This document shows positions 23,982 through 29,602 of a stretch of 64,000 nucleotides of DNA, piece after piece. Under the pieces are notes generated by a model that saw only the letters and a program-made list of their open reading frames with translations, searched no databases and was not told the DNA's origin. Location of the stretch: the NCBI RefSeq assembly GCF_029210485.1, contig NZ_JARGET010000008.1, forward strand, positions 124,001 to 188,000. Reading direction: 5' to 3'. The DNA is from Hoeflea sp. YIM 152468 (GTDB lineage: Bacteria > Pseudomonadota > Alphaproteobacteria > Rhizobiales > Rhizobiaceae). The translations under genes were made by a program, and so were the position numbers. Numbering within the stretch: the stretch's first letter is position 1; the number at the start of each line of letters is the position of its first letter.

Positions 23982-25157
23982 ATGTCCGTTCGTCGACTTG
24001 CCGAAGAGAGTGTCCAGCCTGCGGAATTCGCGTTCAATCGCGAATTTGCCGCCCAGGCCAAGGTGTGGATCAAGAAATATCCCAAGGAGCGGGCGCAATC
24101 GGCGGTGATTCCGCTGATGATGCTGGCTCAGGAGCAGGATGGCTGGGTCACCAAGCGCGCCATCGAAACGATCGCCGACATGCTTGGGATGCCCTATATC
24201 CGGGCCCTGGAAGTGGCGACATTCTACACCCAGTTCCAGCTGAAGCCGGTGGGCAAGCGCGCGCATGTTCAGGTCTGCGGCACCACGCCTTGCATGTTGC
24301 GCGGCTCGGAAGCGCTGATAGAGGTCTGCCGCAACAAGATCCATCCCGAGCCTCTGCAACTCAATGAGTCCGGAACGCTGTCTTGGGAAGAGGTTGAGTG
24401 CCAGGGCGCCTGCGTCAACGCGCCAATGGTGATGATTTTCAAGGATGCTTACGAGGACCTGTCGCCCGAGCGCCTGGCCTATATCATCGACCGGTTTGAG
24501 GCAGGCCGGCCTGAAGAAATTCGTCCGGGCCCGCAAATTGACCGGATTTATTCGGCGCCGGAAGGCGGGCTGACAAGCGTCACCGAAGAGATCAAGCCCG
24601 GAAAGACGGCCTCGGCAAAGGATGCGAGCGCAAACAAGAGATCCCCGGCAGCGACAAAGGCCGGGCGGCCGAAGTCGCCTGCGACGCAGACCGCGACCAG
24701 ATCGCCTGCGGCTGCAAAAGCCAATGTGAAGGCTGACGCCAAGACTGCGGCCAGTGCCACCGATGCGCCTGCGATGACGGTTGCGCGCAAGGCCTCTTCC
24801 GCAATCGACACCGGCAAGGTCGCCACAGCCTCCCGGGCGGCAACAAGAGACGGTGCCAAGTCTGCGCCTGCGCTTGACGACAAGAACCGGCCCTCCGGCA
24901 TCGCCAAGCCGGCACAGCCTGATGATCTGAAGAAGATATCCGGCGTCGGGCCAAAGATCGAAGGCACGTTGCATTCATTGGGCATCTACACGTTCGCCCA
25001 GGTGGCGGCGTGGAAAAAGGCCGAGCGTGAGTGGGTGGATGGATACCTGAATTTCAAGGGCCGCATCGAGCGAGACGACTGGATCAAGCAGGCCAAGGCG
25101 CTGGCCAAGGGCGGCGAGGCCGAGTACATCAAGGTCTTCGGCAAGAAGCCGCGTTAG
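23982..25157 (+). CDS. nuoE: NADH-quinone oxidoreductase subunit E with C-terminal helix-hairpin-helix extension
   Basis: 391 residues, more than twice the usual core of about 160-180. Residues 1 to about 185 are the 24-kDa thioredoxin-fold subunit with the N1a 2Fe-2S ligands Cys99, Cys104, Cys140 and Cys144 (VQVCGTTPC; VECQGACVNAPMV). Residues about 200-310 form an Ala/Lys/Ser/Thr-rich, probably disordered linker. Residues 313-380 are a helix-hairpin-helix module (DDLKKISGVGPKIEGTLH, then FAQVAAW and FKGRIERDDWIKQA). The same module closes the protein encoded between nuoF and nuoG, and similar modules occur at the C-terminus of ribosomal protein L21 in this group. The core function, electron transfer in the NADH module, is certain; the role of the extension is unknown. 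Confidence 0.96.
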   Translation: MSVRRLAEESVQPAEFAFNREFAAQAKVWIKKYPKERAQSAVIPLMMLAQEQDGWVTKRAIETIADMLGMPYIRALEVATFYTQFQLKPVGKRAHVQVCGTTPCMLRGSEALIEVCRNKIHPEPLQLNESGTLSWEEVECQGACVNAPMVMIFKDAYEDLSPERLAYIIDRFEAGRPEEIRPGPQIDRIYSAPEGGLTSVTEEIKPGKTASAKDASANKRSPAATKAGRPKSPATQTATRSPAAAKANVKADAKTAASATDAPAMTVARKASSAIDTGKVATASRAATRDGAKSAPALDDKNRPSGIAKPAQPDDLKKISGVGPKIEGTLHSLGIYTFAQVAAWKKAEREWVDGYLNFKGRIERDDWIKQAKALAKGGEAEYIKVFGKKPR

Positions 25158-25166
25158 AGGTGAATG

Positions 25167-26474
25167 ATGTTAGCTGACAAAGACCGGGTTTTCACCAATA
25201 TCTATGGCATTTACGACAAGTCGCTGAAGGGCGCGATGGCGCGTGGCCATTGGGACGGCACCAAGGGCATCCTGGAAAAGGGCCGCGACTGGATCATCAA
25301 CGAGATGAAGGCGTCGGGCCTGCGCGGCCGCGGCGGAGCCGGGTTCCCGACCGGGCTGAAATGGTCGTTCATGCCCAAGGAGAGCGACGGTCGGCCGCAT
25401 TATCTGGTCATCAATGCCGATGAATCCGAGCCAGGCACGTGCAAGGACCGCGACATCATGCGGCACGATCCGCATACGCTGATTGAAGGTTGCGTGATTG
25501 CCGGTTTCGCGATGGGGGCTTTTGCCACCTACATCTATGTGCGCGGTGAATATGTGCGCGAACGCGAGGCGCTGCAGGCGGCGATCGACGAGTGCTATGA
25601 CGCCGGATTGCTGGGCAAGAATTCCAAGCTCGGCTACGACATGGACGTTTATGTTCACCATGGGGCCGGCGCCTACATCTGTGGCGAGGAAACCGCGCTT
25701 CTGGAGAGCCTCGAGGGCAAGAAGGGCCAGCCGCGGCTGAAGCCGCCGTTCCCGGCCAATATGGGGCTGTACGGCTGCCCGACGACCGTCAACAACGTCG
25801 AATCGATTGCTGTCGCACCGACAATCCTGCGCCGTGGCGGCGCCTGGTTCGCGGGTATTGGGCGGCCCAACAACACCGGAACCAAGCTGTTTTGCGTGTC
25901 GGGCCACGTCAATGCACCGTGCACGGTGGAAGAGGCGATGTCGATTCCGTTCCGCGACCTGATCGATACCCATTGCGGCGGCATTCGCGGCGGCTGGGAC
26001 AATCTGCTGGCGGTGATTCCCGGCGGCTCTTCCGTGCCGTGCATTCCTGCTGCCGACATCATCGATGCGCCGATGGATTTCGACAGTCTGCGCGATCTCA
26101 AGTCGGGACTTGGCACCGCGGCGGTGATCGTGATGGACAAGTCGACCGATATCGTCAAGGCGATCTGGCGGCTGTCGGTGTTCTACAAGCATGAGAGCTG
26201 TGGCCAGTGCACGCCGTGCCGCGAAGGCACCGGCTGGATGATGCGGGTGATGGAGCGTATGGTCAGAGGCAATGCGCAAAAACGCGAAATCGACATGCTG
26301 TTTGATGTTACCAAGCAGATCGAAGGTCATACGATCTGCGCGCTTGGCGATGCGGCGGCCTGGCCGATCCAGGGCCTGATCCGGCATTTCCGTCCCGAAA
26401 TGGAAGCGCGGATCGATCAGTACACACGCAATGCTGTGCAAAGCCGCAATGTGCGGCTGGAAGCGGCGGAATAA
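25167..26474 (+). CDS. nuoF: NADH-quinone oxidoreductase subunit F
   Basis: 435-residue 51-kDa subunit that oxidises NADH. It has the glycine-rich loop [17 protein letters not shown] (residues 52-68), the FMN-binding [20 protein letters not shown] (167-185), and the N3 4Fe-4S ligands Cys345, Cys348, Cys351 ([12 protein letters not shown]) and Cys391 (HTICALGD). ATG 25167 is preferred over ATG 25164 because GAGG (25157-25160) is then six bases away and homologues begin MLADKDR. It lies ten bases after nuoE. Confidence 0.97.
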
Positions 26475-26552
26475 GAGGCCTGCATTTGCCGGGCCCGGCA
26501 TGACAGGAAACGTCACGGGGATAAGAGCGCGCAATCGACAAGGAAGATGCTG

Positions 26553-27410
26553 ATGTCGATGTTTTCTTTTCCCACCGAGTTTATGATGAGCGAGATGATG
26601 AAACCGATGAGTAGCATGGCGGACTGGACCAGACTGGAAGAGATGCGTGTCTCTCCGCTGATGGTCTATCCGTTGGGTGCGACAGCGGCAGCGACCGCGA
26701 TTGGTTTCGGCCTTGCCGGACAGATGGCCGGTCTGATGATCGGAGCCATGCAGGGCGCAATGAAGAGCCAGGCATCGCTGCTGGGTGGCCTTCCGGATCC
26801 GAGCTGGATGCCGGCCTTCGCCAAAGACCTTGCGCCAGAAGCTGGCGAGAGCGACGCGGTGGCGGATGTGCAGCCGACGGCAAAAACAAAGACGGCGGAC
26901 ATCGTCGAGCTGAAGCCTGCGCCCCAACCGGTGGCTGCCAGGGCCAAGGCCAAGTCCCGTTCGGCAAAAGCCGTCAAGCCGAAAGCTGCTTCTGCGAAGG
27001 CAAAGGCTGACACGGCATCTGCAGCCGGCATGGACACCGCTTCAGCAGTGGTCGATAAGCTCAAATCCGATGCTGAACTTGCCGCAGCGGCGATCCGCGA
27101 ACGGGCATCGGTGGGAAGGGCGGCTGACAAGGAGCCTGCGGCGACACTGGCGCCTGAGCACTTTCGAAGGCCCGCCGAGATCGCAAAGCCGGAAGCGCCG
27201 GATGATCTGAAACTGATTGCCGGTGTCGGGCCGAAGCTCGAGCAGGTGCTCAACAGGCTTGGTGTCTGGACGTTTGCACAGATTGCCGCGTGGCAGCCGG
27301 AAGAAGTGGCGTGGGTCGATGATTACCTTCAGTTCCGCGGTCGGATTGACCGGGACGGTTGGATTTCACAGGCCGGTGCGTTGGCAAGGGGCGGGGCGAC
27401 CGCTGAATAG
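26553..27410 (+). CDS. Complex I-associated protein of unknown function with helix-hairpin-helix domain
   Basis: 285-residue protein between nuoF and nuoG. Residues 1-30 are Met-rich; residues about 36-70 (MVYPLGATAAATAIGFG and on) are hydrophobic, with small-residue spacing like an amphipathic or membrane-associated helix. Residues about 100-210 are an Ala/Lys-rich linker. Residues 215-285 are a helix-hairpin-helix module (DDLKLIAGVGPKLEQVL, FAQIAAWQPEEVAWVDDY, FRGRIDRDGW). By hand alignment this module matches the NuoE tail at about 43 of 68 positions. ATG 26553 has AGGAAG six bases upstream and is preferred over ATG 26547. The gene is embedded in the nuo operon in the same direction, so a supernumerary subunit or assembly role is plausible but unproven. 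Confidence 0.85.
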   Translation: MSMFSFPTEFMMSEMMKPMSSMADWTRLEEMRVSPLMVYPLGATAAATAIGFGLAGQMAGLMIGAMQGAMKSQASLLGGLPDPSWMPAFAKDLAPEAGESDAVADVQPTAKTKTADIVELKPAPQPVAARAKAKSRSAKAVKPKAASAKAKADTASAAGMDTASAVVDKLKSDAELAAAAIRERASVGRAADKEPAATLAPEHFRRPAEIAKPEAPDDLKLIAGVGPKLEQVLNRLGVWTFAQIAAWQPEEVAWVDDYLQFRGRIDRDGWISQAGALARGGATAE

Positions 27411-27520: not shown

Positions 27521-29602
27521 ATGGCCAAGATCAAGGTTGATGGAAACGAGATCGAAGTGCCGGACCACTACACGCTGTTGCAGGCGTGTGAGGAGGCCGG
27601 CGTGGAAGTGCCGCGGTTCTGTTTTCACGAACGGCTGTCAATTGCCGGCAATTGCCGCATGTGCCTTGTCGAGGTGAAGGGCGGTCCGCCAAAGCCTGCG
27701 GCCTCCTGTGCCATGGGCGTGCGTGATCTGCGTCCCGGCCCGAATGGCGAAACGCCTGAAGTGTTCACCAACACGCCGATGGTCAAGAAGGCTCGCGAAG
27801 GGGTGATGGAGTTCCTGCTCATCAATCACCCGCTGGATTGCCCGATCTGCGACCAGGGTGGTGAATGCGACCTGCAGGACCAGGCCATGGCGTTCGGCAT
27901 GGACAGTTCGCGCTATGGCGAAAGCAAGCGCGCGGTCGAAGACAAATATATCGGCCCGCTGGTCAAGACCATCATGACACGGTGCATTCATTGCACCCGT
28001 TGTGTTCGCTTCACCACCGAAGTGGGCGGCATATCCGAACTCGGTCTGATCGGCCGCGGCGAGGATGCCGAAATCACCACCTATCTCGAGCATGCAATGA
28101 GCTCGGAGTTGCAGGGCAACGTCATCGACCTTTGCCCGGTTGGTGCGCTGACGTCGCGGCCCTATGCCTTCCAGGCGCGTCCGTGGGAGCTCGACAAGAC
28201 CGAATCGATTGACGTGATGGATGCGCTTGGCTCGGCAATCCGGGTCGATACCCGTGGCCGCGAAGTGATGCGGGTGATGCCGCGCGTCAACGAAGCGGTC
28301 AACGAGGAATGGATTTCCGACAAGACACGGTTCATCTGGGACGGCTTGCGCACACAGCGTCTCGACCGGCCCTATGTGCGCCGCAATGGTCGTCTGGAAG
28401 CAGCCTCCTGGGCAGAAGCCTTCGGCGCGATTGCAACCGCTGTGGCCGGCGCGACGCCCGATCGCATCGGCGCCATTGCCGGCGACCTGGCGACAGTCGA
28501 GGAAATGTATGCACTGAAATCGCTGATCAGTTCGCTTGGCTCAGTCAATATCGATTGCCGCCAGGACGGTGCTGCGCTGGATCCGGCTCTGGGTCGTGCG
28601 AGCTATATCTTCAATCCGACCATCGAAGGCATCGAGGATGCAGGCGCGATCCTGATCGTCGGCTCCAACCCGCGCCGTGAAGCCGCGATCCTGAATGCGC
28701 GCATCCGCAAGCGCTGGCGCATGGGGGAGTTGCCGATCGGCCTGATCGGCGAACAGGCGGACCTGCGTTACGATCATGAATATCTCGGCGCCGGACCGGA
28801 GACGCTCAAGGGCCTGCTCGATGGCAGCAACAAGTTTGCGGCCAAGCTCAAGCGCGCCAAAAGGCCGATGATCATCGTCGGACAGGGTGCATTGGCGCGC
28901 AGCGATGGCGCCGGTGTGCTCGCCAATGTTGCCAAGCTTGCCGATGCCGTGGGCGCGGTGAAGGGTGACTGGAACGGTTTTGCGGTGTTGCACACGGCGG
29001 CAGCGCGCGTCGGCGGGCTTGATCTCGGCCTGGTGCCGGGAGAGGGCGGCCTTGACGCGGGCGCGATGCTGAGCGGCACGGATGTGCTGTTCCTGCTCGG
29101 AGCGGATGAGCTCGACTTCACCAAGAAGACAGCCGGTTTCACGGTCTATATCGGCACCCATGGCGACAATGGCGCCCATCATGCGGATGTGATCTTGCCG
29201 GCAGCGACCTACACCGAAAAATCCGGGACCTATGTGAACACCGAAGGCCGGGTGCAGGTGACCAACCGCGCGGCGTTTGCTCCGGGCGAGGCGCGGGAAG
29301 ACTGGGCCGTGTTGCGGGCGCTTTCGGATGTGCTTGGCAAGAAGCTGCCCTATGATTCGCTGCGCGCGTTGCGGGCCGCCCTGTATGGCGACTATCCGCA
29401 TTTTGCGGAAATCGACATGATTTCCACCGGTGATGGCGGCGCGATTGCCGCAATTGCCAGGAAAGCGGGCAAGATGAACAAATCGGCGTTTGCGTCCACG
29501 GTCAAAGACTTCTATTTGACCAATCCGATCGCACGCGCGTCGGCGGTGATGGCTGAATGCTCGGCCTTGGCGAAGACCGCCAAGGCAGTGGCGGCGGAAT
29601 AG
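27521..29602 (+). CDS. nuoG: NADH-quinone oxidoreductase subunit G
   Basis: 693-residue 75-kDa subunit. The N-terminal ferredoxin domain carries the N1b 2Fe-2S ligands Cys34, Cys45, Cys48 and Cys63 ([17 protein letters not shown]). Next is the His/Cys-ligated N5 cluster region [19 protein letters not shown], then N4 with [14 protein letters not shown] and [14 protein letters not shown]. The remainder is a molybdopterin oxidoreductase-like domain that in complex I no longer binds molybdenum. Length matches alphaproteobacterial and mitochondrial NuoG (shorter than E. coli). It starts 110 bases after the helix-hairpin-helix gene. Confidence 0.97.

Follow-up and report, generated by a model that had tools for sequence, protein, structure and literature searches.

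The window analysed here is a stretch of 64,000 nucleotides from Hoeflea sp. YIM 152468 (contig NZ_JARGET010000008.1, positions 124,001 to 188,000), in which the genes nuoE, nuoF, X and nuoG of the complex I operon follow one another on the plus strand (Table 1). X is our designation for the unnamed protein encoded between nuoF and nuoG. In complex I, NuoE is part of the cytoplasmic arm. A first-pass annotation of the window had described this NuoE as a protein of 391 residues with a long Ala/Lys-rich linker and a C-terminal module, and both the coordinates and the Pfam and NCBIfam matches agree with that description. Residues 28-172 matched the Pfam family 2Fe-2S_thioredx (4e-48), and the NCBIfam model NF009040 matched NuoE at 570 bits against a cut-off of 514. 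The NuoE module matched the Pfam helix-hairpin-helix family HHH_5 below its cut-off (0.0027), and HHH_5 was not among the families listed for X. No phasin family was listed for X in Pfam at E <= 1, and neither X nor NuoE matched a PHROGs family at 0.01. The 285-residue form of X begins with MSMFSFP, a start common to four Hoeflea relatives; the four named relatives of X all belong to Hoeflea and share 59-61% identity with it.

Table 1 Features of the nuoE-nuoG region, in positions of the window.
Feature	Positions	Strand	Description	Basis
nuoE	23982..25157	+	391 aa; long form that has a linker and ends in the module	Pfam, NCBIfam
NuoE linker, residues 196-308	24567..24905	+	Ala/Lys/Thr/Ser-rich, net charge +11	
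NuoE helix-hairpin-helix module, residues 309-381	24906..25124	+	net charge +3	
nuoF	25164..26474	+	436 aa	name from reading and position
X (nuoF-nuoG protein)	26547..27410	+	open reading frame of 287 aa; 285 aa from 26553	
X N-terminal hydrophobic helix	26667..26780	+	family-specific motif PLMAHPxAAxAAATAxGFG	predicted, low confidence
X linker, residues 96-212 of the 287-aa frame	26832..27182	+	net charge +4	
X helix-hairpin-helix module, residues 214-284 of the 287-aa frame	27186..27398	+	net charge -2	AlphaFold2, pLDDT 85
nuoG	27521..29602	+	693 aa, downstream neighbour	name from reading and position

NuoE and X end in the same module. BLASTP aligned the two proteins over module and linker with E = 2e-33, and 43 of 67 module positions were identical. 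The local alignment score of the modules was 239, compared to 24.7 +/- 4.8 (maximum 48) in 2000 shuffles, which places it 45 standard deviations above the shuffled scores and bears out the first-pass annotation on this point. The linkers, which had also been called similar, scored 83 against 64.1 +/- 8.4, and 53 of the 2000 shuffles reached that score. Their likeness is one of composition only, and homology of the linkers was rejected. The hydrophobic N-terminal segment attributed to X is present, yet it is weak for a transmembrane helix: its best 19-residue Kyte-Doolittle mean was 1.49, compared to 2.40 and 2.51 in two proteins that resemble protein-O of Dinoroseobacter shibae (described below) and 2.21 in a membrane-anchored module protein of the same genome (L005). 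AlphaFold2 modelled the N-terminus of X as one long helix with low confidence (pLDDT 51).

Further copies of the module were sought with a profile built from an alignment of 41 modules, and matches were counted at E <= 0.001, a threshold that more diverged copies escape. Among 187 distinct modules, several polar or aromatic positions were nearly invariant (W57 99%, D4 98%, Q60 96%, R51 95%, Q30 94%, R54 92%), as were the glycines of the first hairpin (G11 99%, G13 95%). AlphaFold2 gave a confident four-helix model of the X module, and its best fold matches in Foldseek and VIA-align, at weak scores, were helix-hairpin-helix proteins. In profile comparison with the PDB, the only strong matches were 9wqv_a (1.4e-29, labelled complex I 41 kD subunit) and 8yy9_O (2.1e-27); weak matches included RadA, DNA polymerase IV and uS13.

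To determine how NuoE and X share the module among relatives, genomes of the genus, family and order were compared. Within the genus of the window, a full NuoE module was found in 15 of 17 other genomes, and X likewise in 15 of 17; the exceptions were NuoE matches truncated by the end of a contig (G004, G008) and, for X, drafts that are 75-77% complete (G007, G008). In a family sample of 51 genomes from 50 genera, the module was found in 47 and the N-terminal helix of X in 22, the latter a lower bound since the helix search misses diverged X-like proteins such as those of G904 and G908, which have NuoE modules. No module was found in the small genomes G022, G023, G491 and G738 (1.1-2.0 million bases), which belong to this family too. 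Across the order sample of 150 genomes, the X helix was detected in six: five are from the family of the window, and the sixth is a marginal partial match outside it. The module followed the X helix in the same protein in 22/22 cases (21 as open frames, G895 by reading). A further module lay 2.0-2.7 kb upstream of X, where that of NuoE is expected, in 17 of the 22 genomes; nuoE was read in G000, G003, G019, G020, G024, G406 (in part) and G895, and was inferred from position in the others. In the remaining five (G613, G893, G899, G911 and G925, all read), NuoE lacked the module. These NuoE proteins have 267-313 residues and still include a linker; in the same genomes, X is encoded between nuoF and nuoG and has its module. 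In all but G899, the module of X was the only copy found. NuoE of Sinorhizobium meliloti, a species that has X, and of G727 likewise lacked the module. The first-pass annotation had named a NuoE without the module in close relatives as one of the observations that would refute it; such NuoE proteins were found in some genera of the family and not in the genus of the window. The converse arrangement occurs in G021, in which NuoE has the module and a different open reading frame lies between nuoF and nuoG (L054:5896-6354, 152 aa, without the module).

Because NuoE lacks the module in 5 of the 22 genomes that have X, the module of X does not need that of NuoE as its partner, and a NuoE-X module pair was rejected as a required mechanism. 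The earlier proposal of a shared partner or self-association holds as a property of a module with many hosts, but direct contact between the NuoE and X modules is not required. The two copies look redundant: X has a copy even where that of NuoE is missing. In G904 and G908 (L248:1566-5145 and L249:1762-4947), NuoE and X are alike even beyond the module, where both have the tail GGRDEY.xVFGKEP[RK]. This shared tail suggests that sequence was copied within the operon.

The module is found well beyond complex I. At the threshold used, the genome of the window has four copies, located in NuoE, X, ribosomal protein L21 (L006) and L005. The L21 protein matched both Pfam L21 and HHH_5 above the cut-off, so that the related module which the first-pass annotation placed at the end of L21 is indeed present in this genome. 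L005 is a protein of 272 aa with an N-terminal hydrophobic helix and the module, and belongs to a membrane-anchored class. Matches were obtained in 48 of 387 genomes sampled evenly from the class and in 129 of 397 from the phylum; 13 of these 129, counted by the match alone (best E 6.3e-10 or weaker), lie outside the class. By reading of open reading frames, the hosts are NuoE, X, protein-O-like proteins, ribosomal proteins S1, S2, L19, L21 and L27, ABC ATPases of the LivG and Dpp types, RND pumps, polyhydroxybutyrate (PHB) depolymerase, a phasin, and membrane-anchored proteins, the last with between one and three modules each. Host labels were assigned by BLAST to seeds read beforehand, and Pfam or NCBIfam, applied to examples only, confirmed at least one example each of NuoE, S1, S2, L19, L21, L27, phasin, RND, PHB depolymerase, LivG and the Dpp type. 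The resulting set of 179 unique module proteins, 8 of which fit no host class, is not a host census, as its loci were partly hand-chosen and NuoE is over-represented (71); L179:3887-4405 and L240 were assigned to no host. NCBIfam already knows the forms of L21 and S2 with the module; the module was also carried by S1 (L158), L19 (L137 and L149) and L27 (L173). From the module on L21, the first-pass annotation had raised the possibility that complex I assembly is connected with translation or RNA. That link is unsupported as stated, since the module is also found on PHB depolymerase, phasin, ABC ATPases, RND pumps and a photosynthetic complex; L21 thus singles out no connection to translation, and the link was rejected as a specific one because the module has so many other hosts. 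RNA or DNA may still be the ligand.

If the module were a mobile appendage, passed on by recombination and without a specific role in the nuo operon, a broad and patchy distribution of this kind would be expected, as would NuoE proteins that lack it in several relatives and the four genomes of the family in which none was found. The polar positions are nearly fixed across hosts, however, and each of the 22 X proteins detected through their N-terminus has the module, which makes this explanation very improbable. Alternatively, the modules may bind each other, so that the complexes bearing them would gather in clusters, for which membrane-anchored proteins with several modules would serve as scaffolds. 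Two or three modules were found in the membrane-anchored proteins L055, L141, L142, L143, L189, L190, L191 and L217, and NuoE carries the module side by side with X or with a protein-O-like protein. Against this, in some genomes a single module was found, on X (G613, G893, G911, G925), on S2 (G278) or on a small membrane-anchored protein (G686), copies above E 0.001 being missed. No module therefore needs one on another host, and only homotypic pairing is left to them. We regard self-association as decidedly unlikely.

Two described proteins are close to X. The first is protein-O of D. shibae, a component of the RC-LH1 complex whose residues 8-59 form a membrane hairpin between reaction centre and antenna ring, the remainder not being visible; its authors note that residues 159-239 resemble the C-termini of NuoE and other proteins, and report no function for protein-O (PMC12079452). 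The protein-O gene lies inside the nuo operon, between the NuoE and NuoF genes (PMC12079452). Protein-O (PDB 8yy9 chain O) and X follow one plan, with an N-terminal part that is membrane-associated in protein-O and may be so in X, a long flexible linker and a C-terminal module, and the X module matched chain O at 8.9e-20. They differ at the N-terminus, which is a two-helix hairpin in the RC-LH1 map of protein-O and a single weakly hydrophobic segment with another motif in X, and in their slot, which is between nuoE and nuoF for protein-O and between nuoF and nuoG for X. The order of nuoE with the module, a module-bearing protein and nuoF was found in 12/12 loci (L175-L186), which were picked for two neighbouring matches and give no frequency. 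One of these loci has a third module protein, of 172 aa and with an N-terminus assigned to no family, between the protein-O-like gene and nuoF (L179:3887-4405; one genome). No reaction-centre gene was found in the genome of the window (PF00124, 0/1), and a role of X as a reaction-centre subunit there was accordingly rejected. Among existing NCBIfam models, those of long NuoE, L21, S2 and PhaH already include the module. The long NuoE model (NF009040, PRK12373) matched NuoE of the window end to end, whereas X matched it over linker and module only (residues 111-285). The C-termini of the L21 and S2 models NF008915, NF008916 and NF008966 matched the NuoE and X modules (2.9e-22 to 6e-15), although their hosts are different.

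The second protein, PhaH, is the nearest studied relative and gives the closest experimental clue to what the ligand may be. A review describes Caulobacter PhaH as spacing PHB granules along the nucleoid, with an N-terminus that binds granules and a helix-hairpin-helix domain that binds DNA nonspecifically (PMC13052382). The statement in the first-pass annotation that no function had been described was therefore nearly right. Linker and module of X match the C-terminal part of PhaH (NF045508, 3.4e-21; X residues 120-280 on profile positions 78-232 of 234); the N-terminal part of PhaH lies outside the match, which reached 76 bits compared to a cut-off of 250. One explanation is that the module and its lysine-rich linker bind nucleic acid, and that NuoE and X would anchor complex I on the nucleoid or on RNA in the way that PhaH links PHB granules with DNA. 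The reported DNA binding of PhaH and the match of its model to linker and module of X favour this. The hairpin glycines G11 and G13 are kept, arginines R51 and R54 lie in the second half of the module, NuoE of the window is basic in both parts, and the weak profile matches to RadA, DNA polymerase IV and uS13 point the same way. Most modules are acidic, however, and so are the 60 residues that precede the S2 modules (median -9.5). In addition, at the alanine position of the helix-hairpin-helix consensus GhGxxxA, the modules have glutamate in 82% and alanine in 8%. Binding to nucleic acid is, on balance, a somewhat unlikely explanation.

The net charge of the module differs among hosts. Median values were -4 for X, -4 for S2, -5 for L19, -7 for S1 (one protein), -2 for L21 and -1 for NuoE, and basic modules were found in LivG (+3), the Dpp type (+2.5), RND (+2), phasin (+4, one protein) and some protein-O-like proteins. 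The best whole-domain Foldseek match was the AR2 domain of NusA, at a weak score (6ib8_C, probability 0.89, E 0.28; also 1wcn). VIA-align gave Z 6.9 for NusA AR2 and Z 6.7 for AR1, tied with RadA and DNA polymerase theta, and values below 8 may reflect a common arrangement only. The profile match of the module to 1wcn was 0.0095, identity to AR2 is 27% or less, and this likeness does not show a shared function. The structure of NusA AR2 was solved bound to the protein SuhB. The mostly acidic modules and the resemblance to the NusA AR domains would favour a protein as the ligand.

An anchor, a long linker and a small domain of constant surface recur on many hosts, and for this reason the module is best read, with a little less than an even chance of being right, as a tethered docking domain for a common ligand, either protein or nucleic acid. 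Beyond the observed module, hosts and losses, the proposal is as follows. The module, about 70 residues long and probably a helix-hairpin-helix, is joined through a long flexible tether to the C-termini of many unrelated proteins of alphaproteobacterial machines, and would serve there for docking. X would be an accessory protein, held at complex I or at the membrane probably by its N-terminal helix, and the modules of NuoE, X and the other hosts would, to judge by their shared conserved surface, bind one ligand. The module stays conserved where only one was found in a genome, so that this ligand is presumably not another kind of module-bearing protein; modules of one kind may bind each other. 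The likely effect would be that complex I is held at a cellular scaffold, comparable to the reported placing of PHB granules on the nucleoid by PhaH.

Mean identity between host classes (0.45-0.52) is near that within them (0.47-0.53; S2, L21, membrane-anchored proteins and PhaZ), as a shared ligand would give; recent spread could give the same. Several observations weigh against the docking domain. Module charge ranges by host from -7 in S1 to +4 in phasin, which speaks against a single ligand for every host, and the fold matches have weak scores (Foldseek E 0.28, Z < 8). The NuoE chain of 8qby, complex I of Paracoccus denitrificans, has 239 residues and aligned over 3-214, and therefore has no room for linker and module. 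Complex I of P. denitrificans is described with 14 core subunits, NDUFS4, NDUFS6, NDUFA12 and PIMT, and no X-like protein is named (PMC11522691), so that such a protein is no universal need of complex I. Mass spectrometry of this complex found additional proteins, most of which were judged likely contaminants (PMC8115037).

A wider form of the docking-domain reading, which we consider unlikely, is that the module is a class-wide address tag, by which one ligand would gather ribosomes, complex I, the photosynthetic core, PHB granules and transporters at one scaffold. If so, respiration and photosynthesis would be physically coupled in phototrophic relatives that have tagged, adjacently encoded NuoE and protein-O. 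One small domain is located on five ribosomal proteins, respiratory and photosynthetic complexes, storage-granule proteins and transporters of one class, and such breadth points to a ligand or a rule of organisation not yet known. The module on NuoE and protein-O was noted before, with no function given (PMC12079452). The range of hosts seen here links the protein-O and PhaH cases; among open-licence papers, a description of this breadth was not found, and the protein-O paper and the PhaH review were the only items recognised as dealing with the module. The genomes with a single module are clean strains for asking what it binds.

The membrane-anchored proteins have a recurrent neighbour. The L005 gene comes after a gene of the OmpA family (Pfam OmpA 1.8e-21; L005:13-1782), and a gene with an OmpA-like motif lay at most 900 bases upstream in 14 of 25 membrane-anchored module proteins (also L027, L055, L076, L093, L096, L099, L101, L102, L138, L143, L188, L189 and L191), compared to 0 of 133 other hosts. 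The 25 are the 32 membrane-anchored proteins minus 7 of the nuo operon, and Pfam confirmed OmpA for L005 only. Membrane-anchored module proteins may form a link from the cell wall to a cytoplasmic module.

A second NuoE-type domain is encoded elsewhere in the genome of the window (L002, C19:162964-163380), in an open frame of 578 aa without the module, and adjoins a NuoF-like region (38% identity). The module also occurs on viral contigs. A tblastn search for the phage form against named phages gave no match at 1e-3. Among the loci from viral contigs, 11 of 20 matched at least 60 module residues, mostly in small proteins of no known family. The viral-contig loci L195, L196, L197, L199, L200 and L201 encode proteins with similar N-termini and the module at the end, mostly of 119-125 aa and, in L195, of 159 aa.

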